A stretch of DNA of 64,000 nucleotides from positions 1 through 64,000 of the IMG/VR virus record IMGVR_UViG_3300027704_003324. One strand, given 5' to 3'. The notes beneath the pieces were generated by a model. It was not told where the DNA came from, did no database searches, and saw only the letters and a program-made list of their open reading frames with translations. Positions 10,918 to 45,323 of the stretch are shown in pieces (position 1 is the stretch's first letter; each line of letters starts with the position of its first letter). Made by a program: the position numbers and the translations under genes. The DNA is from a virus.

Positions 10918-11091
10918 CTATCCAAATAGCATTGCTTTACTATTCGTATTGTTTTCGTTTATTACATTCCACTTGGCAACTGCTCTATTTCTAGACCATT
11001 GGTCAATTGTCCACTGTAATCTGTCTGTTTCGAATGTGACTCTCTCTTTAGAGCCGTCCATCATTTTAAATTCAACTAAGTACTTCTTCAT
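10918..11091 (-). CDS. small hypothetical protein, 57 aa
   Basis: ATG at 11089-11091, TAG at 10918-10920. Begins MKKYLVEFKMMDGSKERVTF, then ETDRLQWTIDQWSRNRAVAK: a beta-hairpin then a helix, well-formed for such a short frame. It overlaps the 3' end of the glycosyltransferase gene by 20 bases. No family recognised. Confidence 0.7.
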   Translation of the reverse strand: MKKYLVEFKMMDGSKERVTFETDRLQWTIDQWSRNRAVAKWNVINENNTNSKAMLFG

Positions 11092-15491: not shown

Positions 15492-16167
15492 TGTATAGTA
15501 TTTCTCCTACTTTAAATTGCCATTCATAATCTATATCGAAAGCTTCTAGTTCAGCCATAGGGAATAACTTTATACCACCTTCTCTCTCAAAGTCTCCCAT
15601 GAACCTGTCATCCTTTATTATATCTAATCGTGAAGCGTATAAGACATGAGCTGCTTCAGATGTAGGTTCTACAACTTTAGTGTTCATTATTGTTTGACTT
15701 TCAGGCCAAGGAGTAACTAAAGAGCCTTCTTTATTCCAATAGTATTGTTTCTTCTCCATTACAGCAAATAAGTTCTCTTCATCTTGCAGAACTAGTTCAT
15801 TGTAAAACTCTCTAATTGTTTCTGGTTTGAGAAGTGGATTACATCCAGATACTAACATTACATATTTGTAATTATTTGGTAGCTTATCATGCCATTCGTA
15901 TATCTTCTGCAATGAGTTATCATTATTAGCCGACTCATGACTTCTATTGAAGATATTAACTCCCTGCTTCTTAGCTATTTCTACTAACTCAGGTTCGTAT
16001 ACTGAAGCCCATATATGTTCTTGTTTACTTGGTAGTGCTTCTTTGATCTTCTCTAATACTAAATCATATAGAGTAGTATCGGCGAATGGCCTTATCATCT
16101 TTTGTGGCACCCTTTGACTGTTTAGTCTAGCTTGTACTACTATTGCTATCTCATCTAATCGTTTCAT
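15466..16167 (-). CDS. CMP-nonulosonate / sugar cytidylyltransferase
   Basis: 233 aa. IAIVVQARLNSQRVPQKM (about residues 7-24) is the N-terminal A-x-x-S/N-x-R-x-P-x-K motif of CMP-acylneuraminate synthetases and SpsF-like proteins. YVMLVSGCNPLLKPETI (about 97) is the P-loop-like middle motif and FDIDYEWQFKVGE is the C-terminal IDTP-like block. It probably activates an acidic sugar made by the NeuB-like enzyme with CTP. Neighbour overlaps (16-26 bases) indicate translational coupling. Confidence 0.82.
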   Translation of the reverse strand: MKRLDEIAIVVQARLNSQRVPQKMIRPFADTTLYDLVLEKIKEALPSKQEHIWASVYEPELVEIAKKQGVNIFNRSHESANNDNSLQKIYEWHDKLPNNYKYVMLVSGCNPLLKPETIREFYNELVLQDEENLFAVMEKKQYYWNKEGSLVTPWPESQTIMNTKVVEPTSEAAHVLYASRLDIIKDDRFMGDFEREGGIKLFPMAELEAFDIDYEWQFKVGEILYNEFKEGNI

Positions 16168-16855
16168 ATATATCTTTTGATAATGGAAAATACTTCTTAC
16201 TAAGCTCAGTACCTAAATTATAATCTAATCCTTCTCCTAAGTTCCTAAGTCTATTATTATCTTCTAAAGAAGCTAAAACTGTATAGGCATCTACAAATAC
16301 ATTTACAAACGAATGAATTGAATCATTCCAATCTCTTCTAGTATCAGTATCTTTTAATCCTACTCTACCTGAGAATGCATGAGCATTACTAAATTCTTTA
16401 TTGAATCCATCAAATCCTACAAAATTAACTTTACGAGCTCTTGTTGCTTGCATAGCTAATAGTATCATTCTAAATGTAGCTCCTGATTTTTGAGCTGGAT
16501 TATACTGAACTTCACCTAAGTCTATATTCATTGCAAGAATAGGAGTATCTATATACTCTTTGAATGCTATGAACTCATCTGATTTTTCTTTATTGTTCCT
16601 AAAATGCTCTGGTTCGTAATATACGAATGGTTTATCTGCCTTTAGCTTATCCATTAATACCTTACTAGTTATATCAGTTTCATAACCTAATTGGTATAGG
16701 TCTATCTTCTTTGACAATACCTTATCATTCTTATAGAAATCATTACAGGTCCAAAGGAAATCATAATCTAACTTATCCCAATTTCTGTCTAAAGTAGATG
16801 TTCCTCCACCTACTATTAAAATTGATTTACCTATATAGTCTTTTCTAAAATCCAT
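16151..16855 (-). CDS. DUF115-like Rossmann protein
   Basis: 234 aa. ILIVGGGTSTLDRNWDKL at the N-terminus (about 12-29) is the GGG nucleotide-binding-like motif, and NFVGFDGFNKEFSNAHAFSG (about 135) is the downstream block. Similar in layout to the protein at 14703-15491. Probably a glycan-transfer or sugar-nucleotide protein. A second DUF115-like gene in one operon may mean two steps. Confidence 0.65.
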   Translation of the reverse strand: MDFRKDYIGKSILIVGGGTSTLDRNWDKLDYDFLWTCNDFYKNDKVLSKKIDLYQLGYETDITSKVLMDKLKADKPFVYYEPEHFRNNKEKSDEFIAFKEYIDTPILAMNIDLGEVQYNPAQKSGATFRMILLAMQATRARKVNFVGFDGFNKEFSNAHAFSGRVGLKDTDTRRDWNDSIHSFVNVFVDAYTVLASLEDNNRLRNLGEGLDYNLGTELSKKYFPLSKDIYETIR

Positions 16856-17927
16856 ATTTTTCCGGCTCTAAATAGTAAAGCTCTTTAAAGTCTTTTTCTA
16901 TTTCATTAAAGTCTAACATATGCTCCATACCTTCTGTATTATTATCTATTGTACATTCAATATGTCCTTTAAAATAAGGTTTAAGTCTTGTATATTTATC
17001 ATTTAGTTCAAGAGTATCTACTTCACGGTTACTATAGTTCTCCATAATAAAAGAGTATAGCTCTTTCTCATTATTAGCAGCGAAGTGAAAGTATCCATTA
17101 GGGCCGTAAAGCATCTGATCTCCTTCTGTCTTCCACATATTAGAATCAAAGGAAGCTGATGGAGTCTTACCTGCAAAAGCCATAACCATTCCGTGATGAC
17201 GGCCTGTAATATTATACTTAGCAGTCTTAACAGCATCATAGTAATTCTCAAATCCTCCTGTAATATGTTTAATAGCTGGATGTAATCTAGAGCCTGCAAT
17301 GTTTAGGTCACTTGCTGGGTTGCTGGGAAAATCTAAGAAAGCACATTTGTATCCTTCTTCAGCTATTTTATTAATTACATTAATATAGTTCTGTAAAGGT
17401 TTTTCAATTTTTTCTCTCATCTTAGTAATAGCTCCTAATCCGAAACAAAAGTCTAATGTCTTTTTGTCTATACTTTCTTCTTCAAAGTAAGCTGTACCCA
17501 AGTCCGGAAACAATTTGATATTAGTTAACCCTAATTTCTTACAGTACATATAACTTAGAGGCTCTCTTAATGCTACTACTTCTAAACGATTTAGTAAAGG
17601 AATATGAGGCTCTAGTATTTCCTTACTTACTTGTATGGTTACATTTACTAAGTATATAGGAGTATTGGAACTTAAAAAGTGTTTAATTATTCCTATCATT
17701 TGAGCTTTAAAGCCTCCGGGAAGTTGAAACCTATGCCCGAATGATCCTTCTCCATTGATAATTACCTTATCGAATGTTCTAGTCTCTTTTGAATAAGAGC
17801 CCATAGGTTGATAATAAATACTAGCTGATGGGTATACTTCTCTCATAGTCTTTCTAATGGAATGACTAACAAGTTGGCAACCGTAATTGTCGCTGTTAAT
17901 TGTATCGTTTAGTATTAGAATATCCAT
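16845..17927 (-). CDS. polysaccharide pyruvyltransferase
   Basis: 360 aa. ILNDTINSDNYGCQLVSHSI opens as this family (N-x-G-x-x-x-x). VIINGEGSFGH (about 54) is the GEG block, and YNITGRHHGMVMAFAGKTP (about 232-250) is the signature GRxHG block that binds PEP-derived groups. These enzymes put pyruvyl ketals on sugars, giving acidic glycans. Located directly before the NeuB gene with a 1-base overlap, so both act in one pathway. Confidence 0.85.
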   Translation of the reverse strand: MDILILNDTINSDNYGCQLVSHSIRKTMREVYPSASIYYQPMGSYSKETRTFDKVIINGEGSFGHRFQLPGGFKAQMIGIIKHFLSSNTPIYLVNVTIQVSKEILEPHIPLLNRLEVVALREPLSYMYCKKLGLTNIKLFPDLGTAYFEEESIDKKTLDFCFGLGAITKMREKIEKPLQNYINVINKIAEEGYKCAFLDFPSNPASDLNIAGSRLHPAIKHITGGFENYYDAVKTAKYNITGRHHGMVMAFAGKTPSASFDSNMWKTEGDQMLYGPNGYFHFAANNEKELYSFIMENYSNREVDTLELNDKYTRLKPYFKGHIECTIDNNTEGMEHMLDFNEIEKDFKELYYLEPEKYGF

Positions 17928-18778
17928 TACCCTCTTAGTTTTTTCCTTACTGGCTTTTCTGATTCTGTAACTTTAATTACTCCATCACCATAAGCTAATT
18001 CTAATTCTCTAATGCCTGATACTAATTTGAATAGTCCATGAGGAGTTACTGATGCGCTATGATCAGATCCTTCCATTGACCTATCTAATGTTATATGTCT
18101 CTCTATAATAGAAGCTCCTAATAGAACGGATGCTACTGTTGTACCTAATAACATTTCATGACCTGAGTATCCTATTTCAAAGTCAGGGTATTTATCTGCT
18201 AAAGTCTTAATAGCTGATAGGTTTAATTCATCTACTGGTGCTGGGTATGTTGAATTGCAATGTAGTAACCCTATTGGTTCGTCTTTTCTAAAGTAAGCCT
18301 TAGCCTGTCTTAGTATCTCAACTGCATGATCAATTTCTTCTTCAGTAGACATTCCTGTAGAGAATATTACTTTAGGGAACCTTTTAACACATGCTGTAAG
18401 TAGTGCATCGTCCGTAAGAGATGCTGATGGGAGTTTAATAAATGGTAAGTTATACTGTTCTAAGAAATCAACTGAATCTAAGTCCCAAGGAGAAGCTGAC
18501 CATGCAATTCCTTGCTGCTTACAATAGCGATCAATTTCATCATACTCTTCTTTACCGAATTCAACTTTATACTTGTACTCTAAGTATGTCATATCTTCTC
18601 CAGCCCAACGTCTAGGTTTATTCTTCTGTGCTTCTGGAACACATACGTCAGGGTTTCTCTTTTGAAACTTAACTGCATCACAACCTGATGCTGCTGCTAT
18701 GTCGATTAACCTCTTAGCAATCTTCATGTCTCCTTGGTGATTGATTCCAATCTCTCCAATAATGTATGTTTTTTTCAT
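17927..18778 (-). CDS. neuB: N-acetylneuraminate/nonulosonate synthase (NeuB-like)
   Basis: 283 aa. IGEIGINHQGDMKIAKRLID (about 6-25) and CDAVKFQKRNPDVC (about 34-47) match the NeuB start. SASPWDLDSVDFL (about 94), KLPSASLTDDALL, IFSTGMSTEEEI and the metal-binding LLHCNSTYPAP (about 175-185) complete the PEP-aldol barrel. IERHITLDRSMEGSDHSAS (about 225) is the C-terminal barrel end. The usual C-terminal SAF/antifreeze domain of about 60 residues is missing, so it ends soon after the barrel. It condenses PEP with a hexosamine to a 9-carbon acid. The epimerase NeuC is not in the window, so the substrate would come from the host. Confidence 0.9.
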   Translation of the reverse strand: MKKTYIIGEIGINHQGDMKIAKRLIDIAAASGCDAVKFQKRNPDVCVPEAQKNKPRRWAGEDMTYLEYKYKVEFGKEEYDEIDRYCKQQGIAWSASPWDLDSVDFLEQYNLPFIKLPSASLTDDALLTACVKRFPKVIFSTGMSTEEEIDHAVEILRQAKAYFRKDEPIGLLHCNSTYPAPVDELNLSAIKTLADKYPDFEIGYSGHEMLLGTTVASVLLGASIIERHITLDRSMEGSDHSASVTPHGLFKLVSGIRELELAYGDGVIKVTESEKPVRKKLRG

Positions 18779-18781
18779 AAC

Positions 18782-19090
18782 TTAAATTTCTTCTATTCGT
18801 TTAGTTTTATCGCATATCATTAAGTCATATGCTGGCTTTTCGCCGGTAATTAAATTGTGATACTTTGCACCAGCTTCTCCTAATTGATCTCTAGTTAGTT
18901 CATAATAGTCAATACCTGATACAGATCCTCTAGCTGTATAGTAGGTAATGGTATTACCTTCATCATACAGTTTGTTTATCTTATCGATATTCATATCAAT
19001 AGGTCTTGCTAATGAGTATTCTGTACTATCTTCTCCTGGCTCATAGTCCATAATAGTATCGTCTATATCTACATATATATTTTTTCCCAT
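18782..19090 (-). CDS. HAD-family small phosphatase
   Basis: 102 aa. IYVDIDDTIMDYEPG at the N-terminus is the DxDxT nucleophile motif; ITYYTARGS (about 48) is motif II (Thr) and YDLMICDKTK at the end is the motif III/IV region. It is a truncated HAD phosphatase of the capsule-biosynthesis type. Its position upstream of NeuB suggests it could dephosphorylate a sugar-phosphate product. The promoter's -7 box ends 4 bases from the ATG. Confidence 0.8.
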   Translation of the reverse strand: MGKNIYVDIDDTIMDYEPGEDSTEYSLARPIDMNIDKINKLYDEGNTITYYTARGSVSGIDYYELTRDQLGEAGAKYHNLITGEKPAYDLMICDKTKRIEEI

Positions 19091-19094
19091 ATAT

Positions 19095-19125
19095 ACAATA
19101 TACGAACTTTAATTGGTTAAAGCAA
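19095..19125 (-). promoter_or_regulatory. promoter for the HAD-NeuB-glycan operon
   Basis: TTG at 19123-19125, 20-base spacer ending TTCG, TATATTGT at 19095-19102 on the minus strand. The ATG of the HAD gene lies 4 bases after the -7 box, so a leaderless message is expected. This appears to be the main promoter for the tightly packed genes down to about 11 kb. Confidence 0.72.
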
Positions 19126-19611
19126 CGATAATGATGGAAACTTTTCAGGCAAATATTTCTTATATCTTTCTAAATAATTACTGTATTTAGCTTTATTAGT
19201 ATGCATAGCTTTTTGTAACCATTTTATTTTATCTAATGCTGTTCTATGTTTAACTATTACTTCTCTTTCGTTACATAAAAGAGTAGTTGAAGTAAGTTCA
19301 TTGACTTCATCTGATATAAATACTTCTACTTTAAGATTAGAAATACCATCGTATGCTCGCCATTTTGGCTCAACCAGATGTGTTAGCTTTAAACTACATG
19401 CCATTGCATCTGGGAACATTATGTGCCATTGCTCTAATGCGTCCTCAGTATAGATTCTTATATCAAAATCTCCTACGGGTCTTTTCCTAAATCGTGAACC
19501 TAATATGCAAAAGTCTTCCATACTACCAATAAAACTCCAACTGTTGTCAGGTAAATAGTAGTTAAGCTTTTCAATCATATTAAGCTGATCTTGTGTCAGC
19601 TTGTCAGTCAT
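19117..19611 (-). CDS. hypothetical protein, nucleotidyltransferase-like, 164 aa
   Basis: SWSFIGSMEDFCILGSRF and RPVGDFDIRIYTEDAL (about residues 24-57) recall the GSxxxR...DfDi site of nucleotidyltransferase-fold proteins. The rest (DKIKWLQKAMHTNKAKYSN) is helical. Role unclear. It lies between the methyltransferase gene and the HAD promoter, so it ends the upstream operon. Confidence 0.5.
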   Translation of the reverse strand: MTDKLTQDQLNMIEKLNYYLPDNSWSFIGSMEDFCILGSRFRKRPVGDFDIRIYTEDALEQWHIMFPDAMACSLKLTHLVEPKWRAYDGISNLKVEVFISDEVNELTSTTLLCNEREVIVKHRTALDKIKWLQKAMHTNKAKYSNYLERYKKYLPEKFPSLSLL

Positions 19612-20198
19612 TAAGTCATAACGGAACGAGTACGTTTAACTCCGGATTGAATTGGAGTTATTGTTCTCTTTGTTAACTTAGCAAAAGCTTTGTTAGTTTC
19701 TAATTTGAATTCAGATGCATGTAACGCATAAAATTCATCCACAGCTGATTTAGTTCCTGGAAATGCTTCGTAATCTGTTATTATAAAGGAACCGTTTACT
19801 TCCAGCTTGGAAGCTAGTTTTTCTAATGCAAACTCTGTACTAGTATAGCTTACTAAGTGTGAGTGTACTAGTGCTACTGGTTCTGTTGATACTTCTTTAA
19901 GTAAAGTGTCCTCTATATATCCTACTTGTACTTTAATATCTCTATTAATTAGATGTATCATATCAAATGCTGGTTGAGGAGGTCTTTTAAATTCACCTTT
20001 CTGGAATGCGTTATTATCTTTTTCTGATGGTGTATTATATCCTGAGAAAGATTCGTAAATAAGGATGTTTCTTTTTATTATACTTCCTTCATTCATGTAT
20101 CCTATAAATTCTTTAAGGCTATTTCCTTTGCCAAACCCTAACTCTACCAGGCTGCCTGGGATGTTATTTGCTGTCGCTAATGCTGCTTTGTAGTTCAT
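19611..20198 (-). CDS. SAM-dependent methyltransferase (TylF-like)
   Basis: 195 aa. GSLVELGFGKGNSLKEFIGYM (about 15-35) is SAM motif I (E-x-G-x-G-x-S). LIYESFSGYNTP, VGYIEDTLL and ALVHSHLVSYTSTEFALEKL are downstream motifs as in macrocin O-methyltransferase-type enzymes. VNGSFIITDYEAFPGTKSAV (about 134-153) is the DD-YxxPG block. Likely methylates a sugar hydroxyl of the glycan. One-base overlap with the 19117-19611 gene. Confidence 0.78.
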   Translation of the reverse strand: MNYKAALATANNIPGSLVELGFGKGNSLKEFIGYMNEGSIIKRNILIYESFSGYNTPSEKDNNAFQKGEFKRPPQPAFDMIHLINRDIKVQVGYIEDTLLKEVSTEPVALVHSHLVSYTSTEFALEKLASKLEVNGSFIITDYEAFPGTKSAVDEFYALHASEFKLETNKAFAKLTKRTITPIQSGVKRTRSVMT

Positions 20199-20211
20199 AC
20201 TTATAAATATA

Positions 20212-20838
20212 CTAAGTTAATGTATCATAGTAATCGTTTTGCTTTTCTTGCTTTACAATATCTTTTGGATGATAAAGTGCAAGTTCTTCTTGAGGCGGTA
20301 AAGCTGAATGAGATTTAAATCCTTCTAGAACTTCATGTACTTTATTGACCCATTTAATTTCAGGTTTGTTCTTCCAAATTCTCATTTGATAATCAGGCCA
20401 ATTAATCCACCCTTTATCGCTTACATTCCATCTCCATTTATTAATATGCTCTTCTGTAAGTCCTTCTACTGTATTTACTCTTGGTACATAGTATACATCC
20501 GTGTCGCTATTACTTTCTAATATGGTTGGTAAGTTCTTTATAAGTAATTCATTAGGAAGTTCATCGGCATCAATTTGAAATATATAATCTCCGTCACAAT
20601 ATTCAGTTAATTTATTTTTCCAATCTGCAAAATGTCCTTCAAAATATCCTCTCCAAAATTGATGATTAGGTTTAATATTCATCTTCGTTAGCCATTTAGC
20701 TACCTCCGGGTCACCATTCTTCTGATCGTATAGAACTACAATATCATCATGAGTTCTTTTATGTTTCAGAAGAAACGTAACTAGTCTTTGTATCTCTACA
20801 AATTCAGTACAGACTGTTATTGCATAAGTTATATTCAT
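20212..20838 (-). CDS. family 2 glycosyltransferase
   Basis: 208 aa. ITYAITVCTEFVEIQRLVTF at the start, IVVLYDQKNGDPEVAKWL (about 33-50), YIFQIDADELPNELL (about 84-98; DAD metal site) and a C-terminal WVNKVHEVLEGF with the WxxxxHE block of the GT2 family. Small for a GT2 but complete. Probably acts in the same glycan pathway as its neighbours. Confidence 0.85.
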   Translation of the reverse strand: MNITYAITVCTEFVEIQRLVTFLLKHKRTHDDIVVLYDQKNGDPEVAKWLTKMNIKPNHQFWRGYFEGHFADWKNKLTEYCDGDYIFQIDADELPNELLIKNLPTILESNSDTDVYYVPRVNTVEGLTEEHINKWRWNVSDKGWINWPDYQMRIWKNKPEIKWVNKVHEVLEGFKSHSALPPQEELALYHPKDIVKQEKQNDYYDTLT

Positions 20839-21306
20839 CTATCCTGCTACTACTTGAAAGAATCCGATATGATCAACTGCATCCATAAAGTCGTTTTGTC
20901 CGAACATCTTTCTATTTTGCATATCCATTTTAAACTTTTGATCGGCTGGGAAAGCTTTTTGTTTTCTATCTACTTCTGTAATAGGGACTGCCTTAACAGC
21001 AGACCAAGTCCAACTATCTTTATCAGAACCGTCTAAGAATACCATTCCTTTTTCTGGTACTGTAATAGTAGCTGGAGCCCATATGTATCCTTTATCATCT
21101 TTATATAGTAAGTCCACATAAAGTGAAGGAGAAGTTTCTTTTAAGTTAGTTACTATAGTACTTCCTTCAGTCATTAAAGTAGAAGTTGTAAAACCACAAC
21201 CCATACAAGTCCAAGTAGTAATCTCTTCTGTTGATCCTTCAGGTGTAAAGCTTTGCTCGTAGCAGGCATCACTTCCACATTTTCTGCATTCAGTTAATTT
21301 ATCCAT
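20839..21306 (-). CDS. zinc-ribbon protein, 155 aa
   Basis: N-terminal CRKCGSDACYEQSF and TWTCMGCGFTTST make a four-Cys zinc ribbon (residues about 8-40). The rest is a soluble alpha/beta part with MVFLDGSDKDSWTWSAVKAVPI. Found as a single-copy protein in marine phages as far as I recall, but I cannot name a family. Stop is 1 base from the GT2 start. Confidence 0.65.
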   Translation of the reverse strand: MDKLTECRKCGSDACYEQSFTPEGSTEEITTWTCMGCGFTTSTLMTEGSTIVTNLKETSPSLYVDLLYKDDKGYIWAPATITVPEKGMVFLDGSDKDSWTWSAVKAVPITEVDRKQKAFPADQKFKMDMQNRKMFGQNDFMDAVDHIGFFQVVAG

Positions 21307-21309
21307 TTT

Positions 21310-22587
21310 TTATAGTTTAGGAAGCTCAAGCTTCGGTAATGTTAATTTTATTTCTTTAGGAAACTCTGGTAAGTTATTATCTAATGTTTTATCTAAAAGC
21401 TCTACCATTTTGTCAAACGTAAAATTGTTTTTAATTTTATGTGCTTGTCTCTTAGCTCCTTCTTGTGTCTTTTTATAATGCTTAGTAACTTGTTTATATG
21501 CTTTACTTACATCGCTATCATTAGGTCTAAACCATAATGCTTCTTGTGTAATCATATTTTTAAGTACCGCTGATGGATGTACCTTTTGCAAAGTACCTCC
21601 TAATAGTATAGAATCTTCTCTATTTAAGAAGTCTACTTGTCCTGACCAACCTGAAGCAATAACTGGTTTACCTGTTGCTGCAAATTCTAATAAAGGTCTT
21701 CCAAATCCTTCTCCTTTTGTATGACTAACATATGCTTTTACTTTAGGATGATTATACAAATCAGCCATTTCATCATCAGTAACTTCTCCATGAAGTAAGT
21801 ATATGTTCGGTAGAGTACCTGTAACTGTAGAACGTATTTGATCTATTTTAGCTAGTATTTTATCTCTATCCATAATAGAAGTACCTACTGAGTGAGTCTT
21901 AAGAATTAAAGCAGGTATCTTTTTTGACTTAAATGCTCCATTTTTATATGTCTCTAAGAACGTTTTAATAGTGTACCCTATATTCTTTCTATCTTCTCCA
22001 AAGTCTCCTTGCATCCAATGCCCTACACTAAGAAAGCAAAACTCTTCTTTTATCGTACTAATAGATTTAAATAAATCTGATTGTTTATTTACTGTTAAGT
22101 ATTTCTGTACGTCGATACCTTCAAATAATACTTCGACTGGTTTCTCTACTTTAAGCTCTTTAATTTTTTGCTTAGTCTTAGAATCGAAAGCATCTAACTT
22201 AGTTCCTAAGAATACATTTTTAGCATGCTCAGATGATACCAGGTTTAAGTCCATTCTATTGAGTCCTTCTATCCAGCTACCATCACATAGTGTAGTTTCT
22301 ATACCAGCTGTCATACCTATATTATATTTACCTACAGCTTGGAACTCGTTAGGAACTGATATTTGAATCCATACGTCAGGTTTAAATGATAGTTGAGGTA
22401 TTACTAAAGATGTTAATTCATCTTCGTTATGGTCTCTTAAGTACCCACTTCTCGTATTGCCCCATCGTTGTGATAGTACATTTATATCGTACTTACCAGT
22501 CTTTATTAAAGCTTTTACTACATCTCTTGCTCTAGCTCCATAACCTGAATATGTATTAATTGGTGCGCTTATAACTAATGATATCAT
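21310..22587 (-). CDS. family 4 glycosyltransferase
   Basis: 425 aa. N-terminal VISAPINTYSGYGARARDVV is the GT-B substrate-binding side with the glycine turn. The C-terminal half has YLLHGEVTDDEMADLYN (about 267-283), KAYVSHTKGEGFGRPLLEFAATGKPVIAS (about 290-318) with the E-x7-E-type motif EGFGRPLLE, as in GT4. Cytoplasmic. Follows another GT4 gene by one base. Confidence 0.88.
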   Translation of the reverse strand: MISLVISAPINTYSGYGARARDVVKALIKTGKYDINVLSQRWGNTRSGYLRDHNEDELTSLVIPQLSFKPDVWIQISVPNEFQAVGKYNIGMTAGIETTLCDGSWIEGLNRMDLNLVSSEHAKNVFLGTKLDAFDSKTKQKIKELKVEKPVEVLFEGIDVQKYLTVNKQSDLFKSISTIKEEFCFLSVGHWMQGDFGEDRKNIGYTIKTFLETYKNGAFKSKKIPALILKTHSVGTSIMDRDKILAKIDQIRSTVTGTLPNIYLLHGEVTDDEMADLYNHPKVKAYVSHTKGEGFGRPLLEFAATGKPVIASGWSGQVDFLNREDSILLGGTLQKVHPSAVLKNMITQEALWFRPNDSDVSKAYKQVTKHYKKTQEGAKRQAHKIKNNFTFDKMVELLDKTLDNNLPEFPKEIKLTLPKLELPKL

Positions 22588-22588
22588 A

Positions 22589-24034
22589 TTAATAATTTAA
22601 AAGTTTATGTTTAATATATTTTTTAGGTAACGTTTCTATTTTGATTAAGTCGAACTTAGTCCTTGGAACAAACTTATCTAATGCTTCGTTGATAGTAGTA
22701 CCAATAGCAAATGACATATTCTTAGCTGTAAAACCAGACTCATCTGACATTGACCATTCTCTACCTTTAAGTCCTCTATTATTTCTCTCTTCTTTAGATA
22801 AGTTAAATGATTCTAGGATAGCTTGTGCTACATCTTCTGGTCTACATCTATCGTCAAATATATAAGGAGTAGGTACTGAGCCAGTTAGAGATATATTAGA
22901 TGGAAAAACTGGTATAGCCCATTCACCATGATCTTTTACTGTCCCTCTATGGTTAGAAGGAAAATCAGAATCAAAGTCAATCCATTTACCATCTTTTTCA
23001 AATCTCATTTGATCTTGCATTCCTCCTGTAACATTGGCTATAATCATAGTCCCTGCCATCATAGATTCTGTCAATGATAAACCCCAGCCTTCGTTAGAAG
23101 ATATTAAACAAGTTACATCTGCAATATTATACAGAGCATTCATTTGAGCTGGATTAATTTTCTCTTGAGAAAAATATACGTTCACATATTCTGGATCACA
23201 TAGTGCTTCTTTTACTGCATTTAAGTCTGTTCCGTTAGGATCAACTGCTGCTGTATGCATTACTAAAGCACATTTTTTAGCTTTCTCTTTTGGTATTGAA
23301 TCACAGAACATTCTAAAAGCTAGTATTACATCTGCTGTCTTTTTACGTTGGATGTTCCTAGAGTTATAAAACATTACAAAATCAATATCTTTACCAGTAA
23401 ATAATTCTTTCCTAAAATTAGTAAACGTTTCGAATTCAGGATCTTCTTTCTTTATAGGTTTAAATACATTTTCATCTATACCATGTGGAATATACTTTAA
23501 TACTTTATTCTCTGCTTCTTCTTCTAATACTAGTTTATTAATGTTTAATGTCTGTTTAGATATAGCCATTAAAGCATCTACTGAGTTATAGTAAGTTTTA
23601 TTGTATAAAGGAGAAGGATAATCATCCCATATGTTTAACCATACAATAGGTATTTTAGATCTAATCTCTCTTTCTATATCAAATAACCAAATCCAATATC
23701 TTGGATCAGTAAAAATAAAGATAGCATCTGGCTTTTCTTTTTCAATTAACTGACGTACTACGTCTGCATTACCGTATCCATTACTAGGAAGTATCTTGAC
23801 GTAACTATCTGTTAATTTTTTACTTTTATTGATATCATCTGATAGATCGAATATCTTTCCTTCATCTTGATGACCTACAGCTGCACCTAAATTAAGCCAG
23901 TTAAAATGTTGCGCACTATTTACTACAAATTCTCTAGCCATTGTAGCAATCCCTGAATGCATACGAATGTCATCGCAAAGGAGTAGTATTTTCTTTCTAT
24001 CTTCCTTTGGAATATATGGTAACTCTTTATTCAT
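22589..24034 (-). CDS. family 4 glycosyltransferase
   Basis: 481 aa. DDIRMHSGIATMAREFVVNS (about 17-36) is the N-terminal GT-B turn; VMFYNSRNIQRKKTADVILAF (about 209) starts the donor domain; CLISSNEGWGLSLTESMMAGTMIIAN (about 315-340) is the GT4 donor site (S-E-G-x-G-L...E). Long C-terminal tail. Together with the previous gene, it forms a pair of GT4 enzymes at the start of the glycan cluster. Confidence 0.88.
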   Translation of the reverse strand: MNKELPYIPKEDRKKILLLCDDIRMHSGIATMAREFVVNSAQHFNWLNLGAAVGHQDEGKIFDLSDDINKSKKLTDSYVKILPSNGYGNADVVRQLIEKEKPDAIFIFTDPRYWIWLFDIEREIRSKIPIVWLNIWDDYPSPLYNKTYYNSVDALMAISKQTLNINKLVLEEEAENKVLKYIPHGIDENVFKPIKKEDPEFETFTNFRKELFTGKDIDFVMFYNSRNIQRKKTADVILAFRMFCDSIPKEKAKKCALVMHTAAVDPNGTDLNAVKEALCDPEYVNVYFSQEKINPAQMNALYNIADVTCLISSNEGWGLSLTESMMAGTMIIANVTGGMQDQMRFEKDGKWIDFDSDFPSNHRGTVKDHGEWAIPVFPSNISLTGSVPTPYIFDDRCRPEDVAQAILESFNLSKEERNNRGLKGREWSMSDESGFTAKNMSFAIGTTINEALDKFVPRTKFDLIKIETLPKKYIKHKLLNY

Positions 24035-25866: not shown

Positions 25867-27057
25867 TTACATATATTTTATTGTTAAAGAATCGTCGTCT
25901 ATATCCTTTCTATTAACCCATTCTATTGAACCGTCTGAGAATTCTATTCTTCTAGAGCTTGGAGATTTCTGTAGTACCTTAACTGGCTTCTTATGATCAA
26001 TTGGTTTATCATTTTCATCCAGAGTAATCCAACCTTCGTTGTTTTTTTCTGAGAAGTCTCCTTTTTGCTTTTTCTCTACAATAGGAGCTTCAACTGGAGG
26101 ATCTATTTCATCCTCGTCATCCTGTTCACCCCTTAAGTACTCTTCATAGCCAGGGTCATATTCTTCAAACACTTCTGGACCTTCATTATCTAAGTCACTC
26201 CATAAGTCTGGTTTGGGTTTGTCTTCTAATTCACCGTAAAGGTTTCTCTTATAAGCTTGATCAAATGCAAAGTTTGCTGCTACTACTAATGCTATTGCTA
26301 ATGGATCGAATACAAATATAATAATTAACAATAGTATGTTAATAATCTTATCCATAGGAGTGCCTGTAAGTCCGGAAAGGTACTGCAATGGTCCTAACTC
26401 TCCTGCTACTTCAGTATTGTTATCTAATTCTAATATTTCTAATTGAAACTTTTGTAAACTATCTGCTGCTACGACTCTTTTCTCTTGAACAGCTTTTCTA
26501 TTCTCTTCTTCAACTTCAATTCGTTTAGATGCCATTCTAATCTCTGAAGTCGAGATGGTGGTTCTAAAGCCTGCAGCCAACGATGTGTCCTTAACTTGGA
26601 TTGAGGAAGATTTTGCGTTACTGAGAGTAGAAATATTGCTAGATATTCTTTCAAGTTCTGAGTCAAAACGTATAACGTCTTTTTCATAAAAGTCTTTTTT
26701 CTGTGTAAGGTATGCTGTTTGGTTTTCTTTAGTAGTTAGTTGTCTATAAGTATCTTGATATGCAGCACTTAAAAATCCGTATATACCCATACTAGTAATC
26801 AATACTAGAACTACTGTAGCCACTGTTAGGTACGTTCTAAGACCTTTATTTATTGTATCCCAGTACTTATATAATAAAGAAGCTATCACTAGCTTAGCTA
26901 CTTCTAAAGATCCTGCCATTATAATAACTTCTAGCGAAGCTCCAGCAAATAACTTACTCAGTCCACTTACAGAGTAGAATGCAGCTGATGCAGATACAGA
27001 TAGTGCTGATAGTGCAATAATACCTGGGAAGATCCCTTTAGTAAATCGTTTAAGCAT
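25867..27057 (-). CDS. large membrane protein with periplasmic coiled coil
   Basis: 396 aa. Three N-terminal membrane segments (about 11-31, 42-63 and 75-97), a long hydrophilic coiled coil of about 120 residues (LTQKKDFYEKDVIRFDSELE onwards), a fourth hydrophobic segment near 240-262, then an acidic tail (DEDEIDPPVEAP). I recognise this layout from other Bacteroidota phages but know no function. It may insert in the host inner membrane during infection. Confidence 0.65.
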   Translation of the reverse strand: MLKRFTKGIFPGIIALSALSVSASAAFYSVSGLSKLFAGASLEVIIMAGSLEVAKLVIASLLYKYWDTINKGLRTYLTVATVVLVLITSMGIYGFLSAAYQDTYRQLTTKENQTAYLTQKKDFYEKDVIRFDSELERISSNISTLSNAKSSSIQVKDTSLAAGFRTTISTSEIRMASKRIEVEEENRKAVQEKRVVAADSLQKFQLEILELDNNTEVAGELGPLQYLSGLTGTPMDKIINILLLIIIFVFDPLAIALVVAANFAFDQAYKRNLYGELEDKPKPDLWSDLDNEGPEVFEEYDPGYEEYLRGEQDDEDEIDPPVEAPIVEKKQKGDFSEKNNEGWITLDENDKPIDHKKPVKVLQKSPSSRRIEFSDGSIEWVNRKDIDDDSLTIKYM

Positions 27058-27089: not shown

Positions 27090-27497
27090 TTACTTAGCCA
27101 GTAGAATTAGTGTTACTACGGCTCCTATACCTGTACCAACCTTATAGAAAAACGTACGTCTTTTTTGCCTCTTTAATGCTTTCTCTAAATCTTTTACTAA
27201 CTGAGTATTCAGTGATTGTTGCTGATCTTTAGTGTTTATTATAGATCCAAAGTTTATTATCTTTTGATTAAGCGATATTATAATAGTATCCTTAGTAGAT
27301 AACTGAATGCTTTTCTGTGCTATGATGTCATTAAGCACTACGACTTCTTTCTTAGAAGCATCTCCTTTAATAAGGTCTTTAATTACCTCCTTTACTATTA
27401 CTTTCGGTAATGGAATCTTTAAGGTATCTGTAACGCTCTGTGAAAAAGCTGATAAGCTCATCGTCAGAGTAAGTGTTAATAGAAATAAGTTTCTCAT
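27090..27497 (-). CDS. exported protein with C-terminal TM, spanin-like partner
   Basis: 135 aa. Signal peptide MRNLFLLTLTLTMSLSAFSQ, coiled-coil middle (QKSIQLSTKDTIIISLNQK), basic KRQKRRTFFYK and a C-terminal hydrophobic segment (about 114-133). It overlaps the end of the 27379-27765 gene by 119 bases out of frame, an Rz/Rz1-like architecture. No lipobox Cys follows the signal peptide, so a classical o-spanin is not proved. Confidence 0.6.
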   Translation of the reverse strand: MRNLFLLTLTLTMSLSAFSQSVTDTLKIPLPKVIVKEVIKDLIKGDASKKEVVVLNDIIAQKSIQLSTKDTIIISLNQKIINFGSIINTKDQQQSLNTQLVKDLEKALKRQKRRTFFYKVGTGIGAVVTLILLAK

Positions 27498-27765
27498 CTG
27501 TCTGTTTTTTAATGGTCCAAATACGGCCGTTTAGTTGTTTAATTTTAGCATTAGACTCTTCTAAATTAATAGCCATGGTTTTTATTCTAGCAGTTAACTT
27601 TGAGTTTAGGGTATATGTTGAGTCTACTACTTTTTCTAGATTTGAAATTTTAGTTTCATATCCTTTCACATCAACGTTGATGGGTTCTTGTCCGAATATC
27701 ATCCAAGCTACAAATCCTCCAAGAATTGCAAACATTAAATAGCTCTGTAATTTTTTTAGCTTCAT
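27379..27765 (-). CDS. i-spanin-like protein
   Basis: 128 aa. N-terminal TM (residues about 8-24) with cytoplasmic KLKK, then a long periplasmic coiled coil (YETKISNLEKVVDSTYTLNS onwards). This is the layout of Rz-type i-spanins that fuse membranes at lysis. Its -7 promoter box is 6 bases from the ATG and the downstream gene overlaps it. Confidence 0.6.
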   Translation of the reverse strand: MKLKKLQSYLMFAILGGFVAWMIFGQEPINVDVKGYETKISNLEKVVDSTYTLNSKLTARIKTMAINLEESNAKIKQLNGRIWTIKKQTDEKLISINTYSDDELISFFTERYRYLKDSITESNSKGGN

Positions 27766-27803: not shown

Positions 27804-28412
27804 TTATACTATATCATTACTTTCTAATAAAGTATAGGTAAAAGAGTTACCCCATTTTTCTCTTGCGATTTGACATATATCTAGAAACTCATGCCAATCA
27901 TCGTTATCAGCTATGACTTGACATCCTGCTGACCATTTGTCTACTCTGGTAGATGTACCACCAGATCTGCTAGTTGCTCTATGAATGTTAATTCCAAATA
28001 TACCTTCTTCTACTCTTTCTTCAAATAAATCGTATTTACTATCTCTATTACTATCTCTGTATACTTTAACGGGTTTTTGTTGCCCTAAAGCTAAGTATTT
28101 TCCTTGATGTAATCTTAATTTATGAGAGCTTCTGTATTGACCTGGTTTCAATATTGCTACTCCATTTTCATTTAGTACATTCTCTACCCAATGTGTTCCT
28201 GGATCAGTAGTACAATTATAGCAATGAAATTGCCATTCACCTTCTACTTTATATGATATAGTAATACAGTCATCGAAAGCATTAGTAACTCTGTTTTTAG
28301 TTGCTGAGTTTCTTATTCCGATAATGTTTACATCGTAATCACCACCTGTAAAGTACTTATACCCTTTACTCTTCATTGTGGCTTCTACGTCTTCTCTTTT
28401 ATAACATGCCAT
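27804..28412 (-). CDS. L,D-transpeptidase/YkuD-like protein, candidate endolysin
   Basis: 202 aa. GIFGINIHRATSRSGG (about 148-163) followed by VDKWSAGCQVI (about 167-177) gives the H...S-x-G-C arrangement of the YkuD catalytic site with Cys nucleophile. N-terminal part with CYNCTTDPG and Gly-rich loops is unassigned. Next to a holin-like gene and just upstream of the spanin-like pair, so a lysis role is plausible. No signal peptide, consistent with holin-dependent release. Confidence 0.7.
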   Translation of the reverse strand: MACYKREDVEATMKSKGYKYFTGGDYDVNIIGIRNSATKNRVTNAFDDCITISYKVEGEWQFHCYNCTTDPGTHWVENVLNENGVAILKPGQYRSSHKLRLHQGKYLALGQQKPVKVYRDSNRDSKYDLFEERVEEGIFGINIHRATSRSGGTSTRVDKWSAGCQVIADNDDWHEFLDICQIAREKWGNSFTYTLLESNDIV

Positions 28413-28672: not shown

Positions 28673-28897
28673 TTATTTTTTATTAAATATTTTTCCTGCT
28701 TCTGCTATACCAAAGGAACCTAATACTACCCAAACAAAAGAATTGTAGATTATATCATTTATTACTAAATCTTTACCGAGGTAACCAGTAATTAAGTCTG
28801 CAAAGGCAAATATAATCATAATTGCGAATGCTATAAATCCAATTACAGATTTTTCGTTGATATTGTTGTCGTCTTTAAATAGGTCTGAGAATTTCAT
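28673..28897 (-). CDS. holin-like two-TM protein, 74 aa
   Basis: Two hydrophobic segments (about 17-37 and 47-65) separated by GKDLVINDI, a charged N-terminus (MKFSDLFKDDNNINEKS) and basic C-terminus (KIFNKK). Size and topology fit class II holins. Located next to the YkuD-like gene, which supports a lysis cassette. Confidence 0.65.
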   Translation of the reverse strand: MKFSDLFKDDNNINEKSVIGFIAFAIMIIFAFADLITGYLGKDLVINDIIYNSFVWVVLGSFGIAEAGKIFNKK

Positions 28898-28908: not shown

Positions 28909-29313
28909 TTAGAATTTACTTTCTTGTAACAATTCATCTATAACTTCTTGTATCTCTTCTAATGTTGCGTTCAATGTAAAACCAATTCCAGCTTTAAAAT
29001 GCTTAGAATCTTCTCCATCTTTAAATATAATAATGTGGGGTATTGTACGAACACTATGTTCTTTTTTAGCTTTAGGTGCTTTAGATATATCTACTCTGTA
29101 GTATTTACATCCTTCAAGTTCGTCCCATTCTTTGAAAGCATTTGCATCATTAAAAGATGCCCAGAATTCAACTACAATTATACTATAGTCTTCATCTCCG
29201 AATGCGTCGCCGTTGGTAACCTTTTTGTCAAAGTCTTCATCTGTAATAACTGTTTGTGAATAACCCACATAACAGGTAAATAAGAAAACTAGTGATAGTA
29301 GTAACTTTTTCAT
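28909..29313 (-). CDS. exported thioredoxin-fold protein without CxxC
   Basis: 134 aa. Signal peptide MKKLLLSLVFLFTCYVGYSQ, then the thioredoxin fold: VVEFWASFNDANAFKEWDEL (about 48-67) at the position where WCxxC would be, YRVDISKAPK, and VRTIPHIIIFKDGE (about 92-105) with the cis-Pro loop. The active-site pair of Cys is replaced, so it cannot act as a disulfide oxidoreductase; it might be a periplasmic adaptor or chaperone. Near the holin-like gene. Confidence 0.7.
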   Translation of the reverse strand: MKKLLLSLVFLFTCYVGYSQTVITDEDFDKKVTNGDAFGDEDYSIIVVEFWASFNDANAFKEWDELEGCKYYRVDISKAPKAKKEHSVRTIPHIIIFKDGEDSKHFKAGIGFTLNATLEEIQEVIDELLQESKF

Positions 29314-29324
29314 TTATTTATTAA

Positions 29325-29648
29325 TTATTGTCTAGACTGTAAATCATATAGTCTTTCATCTATTTTATCAAGTTGTTTTTTAATCTCTTCAACATCGTTT
29401 TGAGTATTCATAATTGCATCACGTATTGCCTCATCCTTCATTTGAAACTCAATTCTTTGAATTTCAGCTTCCGGAAGTTCTTTTGCTAATTCAATATCAG
29501 CTTTTAATGTAAACCACATTCCAATTACAGTAGAGATTAGTACTAAAAACATCCCTACTGTTTTAAGATCAATTGAAAAGTCAGGTTTACCGTCTCCGTC
29601 TACATCTATGCCTAACTTTACTTTGTTTGTATCTATCTTCTTCGCCAT
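29325..29648 (-). CDS. TM protein with DxDGDGxPD motif and coiled coil
   Basis: 107 aa. KLGIDVDGDGKPDFSIDLKT (about residues 11-30) is a calcium-type DxDxDG loop before a TM segment (about 31-48), then a coiled coil DVEEIKKQLDKIDERLYDL. A DxDGD-like loop also occurs in the protein at 31226-31525. A small membrane protein, possibly exposing a coiled coil, of unknown role. Confidence 0.6.
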   Translation of the reverse strand: MAKKIDTNKVKLGIDVDGDGKPDFSIDLKTVGMFLVLISTVIGMWFTLKADIELAKELPEAEIQRIEFQMKDEAIRDAIMNTQNDVEEIKKQLDKIDERLYDLQSRQ

Positions 29649-29665: not shown

Positions 29666-30880
29666 TTACTTAAATGTGTAATTAAATCCGAATGTAGTTT
29701 GATAGAATTTACTATCCCACATCTTAGAGTATTCACCTTCTACGAATATTCCTATATTTTTACCTAACTTAGTTCCTAATGAAGCTCCGAATGAATAATC
29801 TACCCATTGTTCTAATTCATTATCTAATATTAGTCCACCTTTACCCCAATTATTTCTGTTTAAGTAAGATGCTCTTTCATCACCTTTAATGTATTTGTGC
29901 ATTGGAAGTATGTAGTTAGCATAACCATGGAACCAGAAGTCTCTTTTATAATGATAAAAATCTACTCCAATGATTGGTGCCACTTCAACCCATGAATCTA
30001 ATTCATCCCAAGCTTCTCCGTTAAATCGATTCATTAAATTTGGAAATATACTTTCTCTAAAATCTAAATCAGAATAAGCTACTATTTCTCCATCTTGATC
30101 TTTCCAAATCCAATCTTGAGTTTCTTCACCTGTTGTTTGATCTGTATAGGTTGTAAAATGGTCTGAGTAGCCATATTCAAATCCTAAAGTGTACCAAGGA
30201 TTCTTAGAACCTTCAAAGGGGTTGCCATTTTCATCATAATATGTTTCAGTTTCGTTCAACCATATCTCTATTGGATTATATCCATATGCTCTTTGGTGAC
30301 CTCTTGCTATAGCTCCTGCTGATATTGAAAACTTCTTACCTATTGGCAGTCTAGCTCTTACTTCTGCAGAATTAAAGTTAAGGTTTATTTTATCTACTTG
30401 TCTTGATTGAACTTTTACTATATGGTATTTACCTGTATGCTTAAGAAAGAAGTTATGATTAGTAAAATCTTCTCCTCTCCATCTTTCTTTTTCAAAGTGG
30501 AATTGATACTCTAGTCCTATAACTGCTGAGGAAGGAGCTGAAAATGTCAATTGTGATTCAGTACCGTCATAGAAGTTTTTAGGTTTTCTTTCGTATCCAA
30601 ACCTTGCTAGTTTTCTAATACCAAAACCGTATCTAAAATCGTATGGATAGATTGGGGTGTTGTCTACTACATCTGGTATAGAGTAAATGCTTCCGTCAGG
30701 ATTAGTTCTTAGAAAGTAAGTTGGTTCTGCTGCTTCAATGGAATTTGAGATATCACCAGCTGCATATACTGTACCGTATTTAAGAAAGTCTTTATATACA
30801 GAGGTAAAGAAAGAATCTTTATCCTGTGCTAATGCACTACTGGTGATCAGTAATGAAAGAATTAATAGTATGTGTTTCAT
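29666..30880 (-). CDS. outer-membrane beta-barrel-like protein
   Basis: 404 aa from MKHILLILSLLITSSALAQD, which is a signal peptide with SALAQ cleavage site. I use this ATG rather than the upstream one, which would add 17 residues before the signal peptide. The mature part is rich in aromatic alternating strands (GLEYQFHFEKERW, DYSFGASLG) and ends FGFNYTFK, a typical barrel C-terminal strand. A phage-encoded outer-membrane protein could block superinfection or alter the envelope. Confidence 0.72.
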   Translation of the reverse strand: MKHILLILSLLITSSALAQDKDSFFTSVYKDFLKYGTVYAAGDISNSIEAAEPTYFLRTNPDGSIYSIPDVVDNTPIYPYDFRYGFGIRKLARFGYERKPKNFYDGTESQLTFSAPSSAVIGLEYQFHFEKERWRGEDFTNHNFFLKHTGKYHIVKVQSRQVDKINLNFNSAEVRARLPIGKKFSISAGAIARGHQRAYGYNPIEIWLNETETYYDENGNPFEGSKNPWYTLGFEYGYSDHFTTYTDQTTGEETQDWIWKDQDGEIVAYSDLDFRESIFPNLMNRFNGEAWDELDSWVEVAPIIGVDFYHYKRDFWFHGYANYILPMHKYIKGDERASYLNRNNWGKGGLILDNELEQWVDYSFGASLGTKLGKNIGIFVEGEYSKMWDSKFYQTTFGFNYTFK

Positions 30881-38030: not shown

Positions 38031-39692
38031 TTATCCCATTAACATTGCTGGATCGATTCCTCCTGGCATACCTGCTGGTTCACCGTCTTTTGGTGGATCG
38101 ATTGATACAACTGCTTCCGTCGTTAACATTGTAGCTGCAACTGATGCTGCATTTTCTAATGCTAATCGTGTAACTTTAGTAGGGTCAATAATACCTGCTT
38201 TTAACATATCAGTATACTCTTCGAATCTACTATTATAACCGTACCATTGGTTCTTCTTACCTTCTACTACTTCTTTGATCTCTGCAACTTTCTCTGGTTC
38301 TACGCCTGCATTCCATAAGATCTGAGTAAATGGTGTTGTAAGTGCTTCGGTTAGAATATCTAATCCTATCAATTCACTCACAGTAAGGTCTTTAAACTTT
38401 CCTTTTCCTCGTTGCTTAGTTAAGTCTAAAGCAGAGTTCAATAAAGCGATTCCACCTCCAGGTAGTATACCTTCTTCTAATGCTGCTTTTGTAGCATGTA
38501 AAGCATCGTCTACTCTATCTTTCTTCTCCTTCATTTCGATTTCAGTATGACCTCCTACGTGAACTACTGCTACTCCTCCGATAAACTTAGCTAATCTAGC
38601 TTGTAAGTTTTCAATTTCGAATGGTGAATTTGCTTCATCAATTTGAGTTTTAATCTCTTCAACTCTTGCTGTAATAGCTGCATCTTCTCCTTTAGCATCA
38701 ATAATCGTAGTAATATCTTTACTAACTGTAACCTTTCCGGCTTTACCTAACCATTTAGGATCAAATCTATCTAATCGCATTCCTTTTTCACTAGAGATTA
38801 CTTGTGCTCCAGTCATAATAGCAATATCTTCTAAGATAGCTTTCTTACGATCACCAAAATCAGGGGCTTTAACAGCTACTGCTGGTAATATACCTCTCAT
38901 CTTGTTTACTACTAAGGTAGACAGTGCCTCTCCATCAAGATCATCTGCAATTAGTAATAGTGATTTGTTCTGTACTTGTACTGCTTCTAAGACGGGTAAT
39001 AACTCTTTAATACTACTCAACCTCTTATCTACAATTAGTACATACGGTGATTGAAGAACAGCTGTCATTGATGGATTGTCTGTTACGAAGTATGGAGACT
39101 TATAACCACGATTAAATTGCATTCCTTCTACTGTTTCTAGATAGGTTTCTCCAGTTTTAGATTCTTCGATTGTAACAACTCCATCACGGCCAACTTTTTC
39201 CATTGATGTTGCAATTAACTCACCAACTTCTTTATCGCTATTCGCTGATATAGTAGCTACTTGTTTTAACTGCTCTTCATCCGTAATATCTTTAGATAGA
39301 TTTTCTAAATACTCTACAATTACTTTTGTACCTTTTAGAATACCTCTCTGTACTTCAACTGCATTATAGTCTCCGATAGTACCTAGTCCTTTATTATAAA
39401 GCTCTCTAGCTAATAATGTTGACGTAGTTGTACCATCTCCAGCTTGTTCTGCAGTTTTAATAGATGCTTGCTTAACTAGCTGAGCTCCTATATTTTCTAA
39501 CTTATCTTCTAAGTCTATTGATTTAGCTACTGTAACTCCATCTTTAGTAGACTGTGGGTTACCCATTGCACTTTCAATAATAACATTACGTCCTGATGGT
39601 CCTAATGTGCTTATAACTGCTTGAGCTAACTTCTCAATTCCATCGCTAAGACCTTGTCTTGCTGCATGGTTAAATGTAATACTTTTACTCAT
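38031..39692 (-). CDS. groL: GroEL chaperonin
   Basis: 553 aa, full length. [20 protein letters not shown] (about 29-48), [35 protein letters not shown] (GDGTTT ATP site, about 84-98), [12 protein letters not shown]-type [14 protein letters not shown] (about 406) and C-terminal [14 protein letters not shown]. Catalytic Asp of GDGTTT is kept. Its start overlaps the groES stop by 8 bases, so stoichiometry is translation-coupled. Confidence 0.97.
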
Positions 39693-40005
39693 TGTCTTCT
39701 TTTTCTTTTACAACCGCTAGTATTTCTCTATCTTGAGCTAAATAGTATTCTTCTCCTTCAAAGTCAATACGTAAAGTACCAATTTTAGGAACCAATACCA
39801 CATCGCCTGCTTTACATGAACGTACTGTGATTAATTTACTTGGATCTAATTCGGACTGACGTCCAGGACCTACTGCTAGTACAGTGCCCATTTCCGGTTT
39901 TTCTTTTCCTAAATCTGGAATTACTAAGTTTCCATACATTTGTTCGCCTTCATCTATAGGCTTGATAAGAATCCGATCATTAGTCGGAGATAACTGTTTT
40001 GTCAT
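39685..40005 (-). CDS. groS: GroES co-chaperonin
   Basis: 106 aa. LSPTNDRILIKPIDEGEQMY with the expected mobile loop NLVIPDLGKEKPEMGTVLAV (about 26-45) and a C-terminal half DVVLVPKIGTLRIDFEGEEY. The usual loop Ile-Val-Ile contact is present as LVIPD. Forms the lid of the phage GroEL. First gene of the operon, with its promoter at 40026-40056. Confidence 0.93.
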   Translation of the reverse strand: MTKQLSPTNDRILIKPIDEGEQMYGNLVIPDLGKEKPEMGTVLAVGPGRQSELDPSKLITVRSCKAGDVVLVPKIGTLRIDFEGEEYYLAQDREILAVVKEKEDNE

Positions 40006-44138: not shown

Positions 44139-44407
44139 TAATATTCTCCGTATAAGTCGAATACCTTAGCTTCCGGAACTTCTTCTTCTACTATAAATTC
44201 TTTAATTGCAAATAGTTTTCCGTTTAATGGCTCTAACCTATAATGTCCTTTAAATTTAGTTTTTCGTAAGTACTGAGTTAATGCTTCTACTAGACCTTCA
44301 ACAACTGTCTCTTTATCTATTACTAGTTCCCAGTTATCTCCAGGAGGAACACGAACTGCAATTAGTTCGTATTCTTCTTCGATCTTTGTTTTGTTATCTT
44401 CAGCCAT
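44138..44407 (-). CDS. hypothetical acidic protein, 89 aa
   Basis: EEEYELIAVRVPPGDNWELV (about 10-29), then GHYRLEPLNGKLFAIKEFIV and an acidic end EEEVPEAKVFDLYGEY. Compact beta-rich shape, no Cys. Lies directly between QueF and the J-domain gene with one-base overlaps. No family recognised. Confidence 0.6.
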   Translation of the reverse strand: MAEDNKTKIEEEYELIAVRVPPGDNWELVIDKETVVEGLVEALTQYLRKTKFKGHYRLEPLNGKLFAIKEFIVEEEVPEAKVFDLYGEY

Positions 44408-45318: not shown

Positions 45319-45323
45319 TTTAT

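Follow-up and report, generated by a model that had tools for sequence, protein, structure and literature searches.

We find that a predicted outer-membrane beta-barrel encoded by a phage is almost always accompanied by two further predicted envelope proteins, one a coiled-coil protein of the inner membrane and the other a periplasmic thioredoxin that is redox-dead, the main point here and one that the earlier note on this DNA had overlooked. The three genes are shown to occur together, in two operon-like orders, in many marine phages, a finding which is solid and well supported. With the trio the phage may break the host outer membrane at lysis in a manner not described before. The trio lies in the window (the whole stretch of 64,000 nucleotides that was analysed), which covers positions 1 to 64,000 of IMG/VR record IMGVR_UViG_3300027704_003324. 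This record has 139,240 bases (139 kb) and is a T4-like phage; its DNA polymerase has 70% identity to that of the closest cultured relative, Flavobacterium phage vB_FspM_immuto_2-6A (Immutovirus, NC_055915), whose annotation includes a T4-like gp20 and gp23. The features of the window discussed below are as follows, with gp numbers referring to Immutovirus.

29666..30880, minus strand: predicted outer-membrane beta-barrel gene (component B), an intact ORF of 404 aa with 12 predicted strands and viral relatives
30824..30880, minus strand: barrel signal peptide, residues 1-19, ending ...SALAQ (from sequence and relatives)
30518..30610, minus strand: conserved barrel loop 91-121, placed in the periplasm by strand count (alignment and model)
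29993..30295, minus strand: large barrel loop 196-296, placed outside the cell by strand count (model)
29325..29648, minus strand: putative inner-membrane protein (component I), 107 aa (about 95 in relatives), with one transmembrane helix and an acidic coiled-coil tail (alignment, topology statistics and heptad test)
28909..29313, minus strand: putative exported thioredoxin-fold protein (component T), 134 aa, without CxxC (PF00085)
29140..29151, minus strand: codons 55-58 (NDAN), the NxxN found in place of CxxC (translation and alignment)
28673..28897, minus strand: small protein with two hydrophobic stretches, a possible holin (homology to gp192)
27804..28412, minus strand: endolysin-like gene, matching PHROG 33083 (endolysin) at E 2.7e-17 and PHROG 3000 (no assigned function) at E 6.3e-36
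27379..27765, minus strand: type II membrane protein with a coiled coil (by eye), not part of the module, 36% identity to gp187
27090..27497, minus strand: overlapping frame with a signal peptide, a helix and a C-terminal membrane helix (by eye) and no lipobox, not part of the module, 40% identity to gp186

A three-gene module in marine phages

Relatives of the barrel were recovered from 58 IMG/VR stretches with the window protein as query and from 246 with an alignment, and the finding that 246 stretches code for relatives excludes a chance ORF. Clustering at 95% identity, with barrels shorter than 350 aa excluded, gave 136 clusters, and the non-redundant loci analysed are the 117 whose flank is 6 kb or longer. 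Because 47 of these had been fetched via a partner gene and are biased for the trio, the unbiased count is that of the 70 loci selected by the barrel alone, and all 70 contain the barrel, inner-membrane and thioredoxin-fold genes; so do all 47 partner-fetched loci, and the overall figure is 117/117. The gene order is barrel, inner-membrane, thioredoxin in 114 loci and inner-membrane, thioredoxin, barrel in the other three, and among the 114 the gap is no more than 30 nt between barrel and inner-membrane gene in 91 and between inner-membrane and thioredoxin gene in 102. Both partners are likewise present in 91/91 loci with distinct barrels and at least 1.5 kb downstream, on the downstream side in 87 and upstream in four. 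The partner scans took the best 80 of 535 relatives of the inner-membrane protein and the best 80 of 548 relatives of the thioredoxin-fold protein, of which 4 and 7 were already in the set, and many of these contigs overlap the barrel set. Among those newly fetched the trio was found in 73/76 and 69/73, respectively, and each of the seven exceptions has the recovered gene no more than about 1.2 kb from a contig end.

We also followed the module through 28 whole records, which were chosen for length and not at random. The barrel is single-copy in each, with one record also holding a partial match at its start and the full copy at its end. The most divergent barrel (L348, 35% identity) belongs to a run of M15-like endolysin, inner-membrane, thioredoxin and barrel genes with 1-nt gaps, and at L345 an M15-like endolysin gene shares 4 nt with the start of the barrel gene. 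The distance matrices of the three proteins correlate at 0.14-0.26, no better than with those of neighbouring genes, and this mirror-tree analysis therefore gives no co-evolution signal and no support for a physical complex. Immutovirus lacks the barrel and the inner-membrane gene, and its only match to the thioredoxin-fold protein is a weak one (E 0.0016) to the annotated thioredoxin-domain gene gp022. Some relatives of the module are followed by a gene for a second, small protein of 142 aa, by eye barrel-like and putatively of the outer membrane, as at L084:8834-9262 and, about 0.9 kb past the barrel, at L124.

A first scan of bacterial genome contigs gave 28 candidates, none of them related to the barrel, and a second gave eight barrel loci (L341-L348), every one of them in contigs of public metagenome-assembled genomes (MAGs). 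Both partners are present in seven of the eight, which suggests that these are probably phage contigs that have been mis-binned; at L341, with 917 nt of downstream sequence, neither partner was detected. The bins carry the names Woesearchaeota, Alphaproteobacteria, Maricaulis, Bacteroidetes and Flavobacteriaceae.

Predicted structure and location of the components

The barrel ORF runs on the minus strand from an ATG at 30880 to a stop at 29666, and its product starts with the signal peptide MKHILLILSLLITSSALAQ. Bacteroidota signal peptides typically have Q at +1, and a signal-like N-terminal stretch with a final Q is present in 112/117 barrel relatives. The C-terminus, ...FGFNYTFK, is compatible with a last barrel strand. 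Both features on which the earlier note had founded its barrel, signal peptide and C-terminal strand, are thus borne out, and structure prediction agrees with them: AlphaFold2 with an 84-row alignment returned a 12-strand barrel with a mean pLDDT of 81.3 and a pTM of 0.69, as compared with a pLDDT of 74 from a 27-row alignment. The strands of this model are residues 37-45, 81-90, 122-134, 137-149, 153-162 and 167-180 (1 to 6) and 184-195, 297-312, 315-324, 361-371, 376-387 and 390-401 (7 to 12), with a helix at 24-33 and an insertion of 100 residues separating strands 7 and 8. A signal peptide together with an even number of strands, both by prediction, is consistent with an outer-membrane barrel, and we infer that the protein is inserted into the outer membrane. 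If, as is usual, both ends of the barrel are periplasmic, then the 196-296 insertion would be outside and loop 91-121, where model confidence is low (47-57 in ten-residue blocks), would be inside. Mean pairwise identity is 0.45 in residues 210-270 (no other long stretch of the mature protein is as variable), 0.49 in L1, 0.65 in 91-122, 0.83 in 196-209, 0.85 in strand 2 and 0.98 for the WD at 388-389. By these values the predicted outer parts seem moderately variable, unlike what a receptor decoy would be expected to show.

Database comparisons place the barrel in no known porin family of Pfam (0 families at E 10), PHROG (best E 0.15, not credible) or NCBIfam (best E 0.8, unrelated). Three members of the family, used as tblastn queries against 50,697 cultured-phage records at E up to 10, gave no match, and by sequence the PDB gave nothing credible (best E 0.66 and 0.98). 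A fold search of the PDB with the better model reached Z of at least 8 for 140/996 aligned chains, and the matches listed are barrels, led by CymA (Z 12.5, rmsd 4.8, 202 residues aligned) and OmpG (Z 12.4, rmsd 4.8, 185 aligned), with unrelated barrels following within about 3 Z. The first model had matched the nucleoside channel Tsx best (Z 14.7, rmsd 4.0, 196 aligned), which is absent among the 50 matches listed for the better model. With many unrelated barrels scoring about equally in Z, and with Tsx giving way to CymA and OmpG as the best match between models, no function was read from the fold. In BFVD the best match is A0A516LKJ4 (E 1.3e-26, TM to target 0.73, 22% identity).

The inner-membrane protein has an N-terminal transmembrane helix followed by a presumably periplasmic coiled coil, which is the anatomy looked for in a spanin. 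Over the 117 loci its tail has a median length of 59 aa and a mean net charge of -7, and in 85% of them the heptad pattern exceeds the 95th percentile of shuffled sequences. The charge around the helix (-0.5 before it, -1.3 after it) weakly supports this orientation, and we are probably dealing with an inner-membrane protein whose acidic coiled coil extends into the periplasm. It weakly matches PHROG 1009 (no assigned function) at E 5.3e-5; neither this protein nor the barrel matches a PHROG spanin model at E 1, and cultured phages gave two weak matches (E 1-3) and none with a divergent member as query.

The thioredoxin-fold protein matches PF00085 at E 1.4e-6 (28.6 bits against a cut-off of 23.5), which assigns it to the thioredoxin fold. 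The CxxC of an oxidoreductase active site is found in 0/117 members, its place being taken by NxxN in 114 and LxxN in three, and in 115/117 the motif is accompanied by a proline at the expected cis-Pro place. A signal-like stretch with a final Q is present in 108/117, and the protein appears to be exported and to have a thioredoxin fold from which the redox cysteines are missing; it may therefore serve as a binding adaptor and not as an enzyme. Cultured phages gave four weak matches (best E 9e-3), two of which are annotated thioredoxins.

The lysis neighbourhood

The earlier note placed the barrel near lysis genes, and this is what we see: the endolysin-like gene, with its PHROG 33083 match, starts about 0.5 kb past the module. 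Between the two lies the possible holin, which has 50% identity over 62 aa to gp192 of Immutovirus, a phage without the triad, and whose cluster recurs in 37/117 module loci. Beyond the endolysin-like gene, 27090-27765 (minus strand) has the Rz/Rz1-like layout of an overlapping pair, common to Immutovirus gp187/gp186. The wider region is colinear in the two phages, running from DpdA and thymidylate-kinase genes through GroEL to lysis and glycosyltransferase genes; the GroEL and GroES pair of our record is at 38031-40005 (minus strand). The glycosyltransferase-like genes form, with sugar-metabolism-like genes, a long series at 11072-24034 (minus strand, mostly identified by eye) that is partly common to Immutovirus. 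Also conserved in Immutovirus is a 396-aa membrane protein of no assigned function (25867-27057, minus strand), with distant relatives in large phages of Stenotrophomonas, Xanthomonas (XacN1), Microcystis, Pelagibacter (Mosig) and Salicola. Further minus-strand genes, at 44407-45348, 47665-48462, 51571-52350 and 58845-59660, form a 7-deazaguanine set, comprising homologues of the Immutovirus QueF-annotated gp202 and DpdA (63% and 74%), QueE and QueC, which suggests that the phage DNA is modified.

Across the family, 78/117 loci have a peptidoglycan-hydrolase gene on the module's strand at a distance of no more than 5 kb (no more than 1.5 kb in 73 and 50 nt in 14), the four model groups considered being M15, PHROG 33083, PG-binding amidase and short amidase. 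The other 39 have none of the four groups nearby, with other types seen by eye in some; for the 42 loci that lack the three large hydrolase clusters, 113 ORFs, one per cluster, were scanned and the outcome was read from the top 25 families. Among the 28 long records a hydrolase (PF08291, PF01510 or PHROG 33083) is present in 25 and absent from three, and DUF5675 was found in 0/28. The nearest hydrolase is within 5 kb in 12 of the 25 (13 if G010 is circular) against 2.8 expected, a number that 0/200,000 simulations reached, although these treat related records as independent and the probability is too optimistic. In 11 of the 25 the hydrolase is only far away (about 8-45 kb, with a wrap that assumes circular records), and in one it is at 6.3 kb.

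A lipobox search of the window's record gave 11 matches, all on the other strand and none in an ORF on the coding strand; the search went by pieces and misses ORFs that cross piece ends, and the record may be incomplete. As a control, the pattern recovered 35/42 members of two lipoprotein clusters. In Immutovirus, plus-strand matches gave two likely lipoproteins, gp030 and gp122, a match in the annotated holin gp190 being discounted. Lipoprotein clusters 11 and 15 stand beside the module in 23 and 19 of the 117 loci, so absence of an o-spanin is not general, and as an argument it fails outside the window's own record. Cluster 15 genes come directly after the barrel at L042:11175-11735, L188:4260-4826 and L004 (+9 nt), which at L042 and L004 puts a lipoprotein gene between barrel and inner-membrane gene, and this lipoprotein is a possible, optional fourth part of the module.

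Proposed role and comparison with known systems

Our best guess, which we put forward tentatively, is that the trio has a role in lysis as a non-canonical spanin in which an outer-membrane protein replaces the lipoprotein o-spanin. The barrel would be the outer-membrane part of a three-protein complex that spans the envelope and bridges both membranes, with the integral barrel standing in for the lipoprotein and the pseudo-thioredoxin acting as coupler. Holin and endolysin would act first and the complex would then disrupt the outer membrane as the last step of lysis. In favour of this are the constant company of the three genes, the hydrolase genes, which lie near the module oftener than chance and are sometimes back to back with it, the heptad pattern of the inner-membrane protein and a record that has no lipobox ORF on the coding strand. 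Against it are the records with far-only or no hydrolases, the 39/117 loci with none of the four groups, the lipoprotein genes beside the module in some lineages, the lack of a co-evolution signal, the Rz/Rz1-like overlapping pair that the window also contains, an inner-membrane tail (median 59 aa) that is short for spanning the periplasm alone, an Immutovirus that manages without the module and the L341 barrel with no detected partner. As the outer partner is not a lipoprotein, we do not class the module among the canonical spanins, and what we propose is that it works in a spanin-like way.

The main rival is superinfection exclusion, in which the trio would block a second phage across the envelope, the barrel masking or replacing its receptor and the periplasmic and inner-membrane parts stopping DNA entry. 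Parts that would occupy all three compartments fit such a role, as do the partial variability of loops predicted outside (L1 0.49, 210-270 0.45) and the porin-like proteins encoded by phages of other groups (BFVD names). Phage PA-2, for example, encodes a porin. However, strong conservation extends over much of the barrel and takes in further parts predicted outside (196-209 at 0.83, the WD at 388-389 at 0.98), hydrolase genes are enriched near the module, and a search of defence families gave only E 0.0064 for the inner-membrane protein and nothing for the barrel and the thioredoxin-fold protein. We think exclusion unlikely. Moreover, a lone receptor mimic would not need coiled-coil inner-membrane and redox-dead thioredoxin partners. 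Of the earlier note's reading, what stands is a phage outer-membrane barrel encoded outside the virion genes and near lysis, whereas for its receptor mimic or exclusion porin nothing was found that points to either specifically.

The same anatomy and lysis neighbourhood, together with the encoded GroEL/GroES, could also belong to a trio that ties the membranes or props outer-membrane biogenesis until the phage is ready, a role in envelope maintenance or lysis timing. Here one might look to TamA and BamA, but their barrels match the better model at Z of about 9.3-11.4, within the generic range, and we consider this improbable. We rate as quite improbable an auxiliary metabolic role in which the barrel is a nutrient or nucleoside channel that imports a solute for phage replication: ribonucleotide reductase genes are present in the phage and Tsx was the best match of the first model, but its absence from the 50 matches listed for the better one, with unrelated barrels close behind CymA and OmpG, marks that match as generic, and the coiled-coil and pseudo-thioredoxin partners would be left unexplained. 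That the barrel is a virion or DNA-ejection component is hardly credible. Fibre-like genes (by eye) do lie near the barrel in a few lineages (L156, L161), but the barrel has a Sec-type signal peptide and no structural family match. In this record, tape measure, tail tube, sheath, gp23, gp20 and terminase, recognised by homology to Immutovirus, occupy 74-134 kb, which keeps them 35 kb or more from the barrel even on a circular record; the earlier note's remark that close virion neighbours are lacking holds for such genes, a fibre-like repeat ORF (by eye, without a family match) at 53-55 kb being nearer.

A spanin-like trio would touch on a question left open by a survey of spanins (Kongari 2018, PMC6139136), namely by what means tailed phages in which no spanin is recognised disrupt the outer membrane. 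The survey reports no spanin in 91/677 genomes (about 13%), lists one Bacteroides and two Croceibacter phages among them, and says that an outer-membrane protein could act as o-spanin while the survey's criteria did not consider one (Kongari 2018, PMC6139136). Bacteroidetes phages use only unimolecular spanins, according to a 2025 survey of lytic proteins (PMC12596118). In open-access PMC literature, judged by titles and the starts of abstracts, no barrel-type spanin or such module is described; should the trio have a role other than lysis, a phage complex with parts in three compartments would still be without a description there. More doubtfully, the trio may amount to a further spanin-like class, widespread in marine phages of Bacteroidota (a host group with several phages among those listed without a spanin), in which barrel, coiled-coil inner-membrane protein and redox-dead thioredoxin break the outer membrane.

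Compared with known systems, Immutovirus shares the colinear replication and lysis region but has an annotated endolysin, gp191 (GH19-like by eye), a holin, gp190, and its two likely lipoproteins. The PA-2 porin and Lom are phage-encoded outer-membrane proteins, and the outer-membrane protein of Aeromonas phage phiAS5 and the OMP-like barrels of cyanophages (BFVD) are, like ours, outer-membrane barrels of tailed phages, with no sequence match to it; we know of no inner-membrane and thioredoxin partners for any of these. With the thioredoxin family (PF00085) component T shares the profile match and the cis-Pro place, but it is a predicted exported protein in which CxxC has become NxxN. Finally, no sequence relation was found to the two-component spanins (lambda Rz/Rz1, T4 PseT.3/PseT.2), but like the module these combine an inner-membrane protein that has a periplasmic coiled coil with an outer-membrane partner, and are often encoded near endolysin genes; their outer partner is a lipoprotein, whereas the module has in its place a barrel of 12 predicted strands whose signal peptide ends in ...AQ, and the thioredoxin-fold protein in addition.
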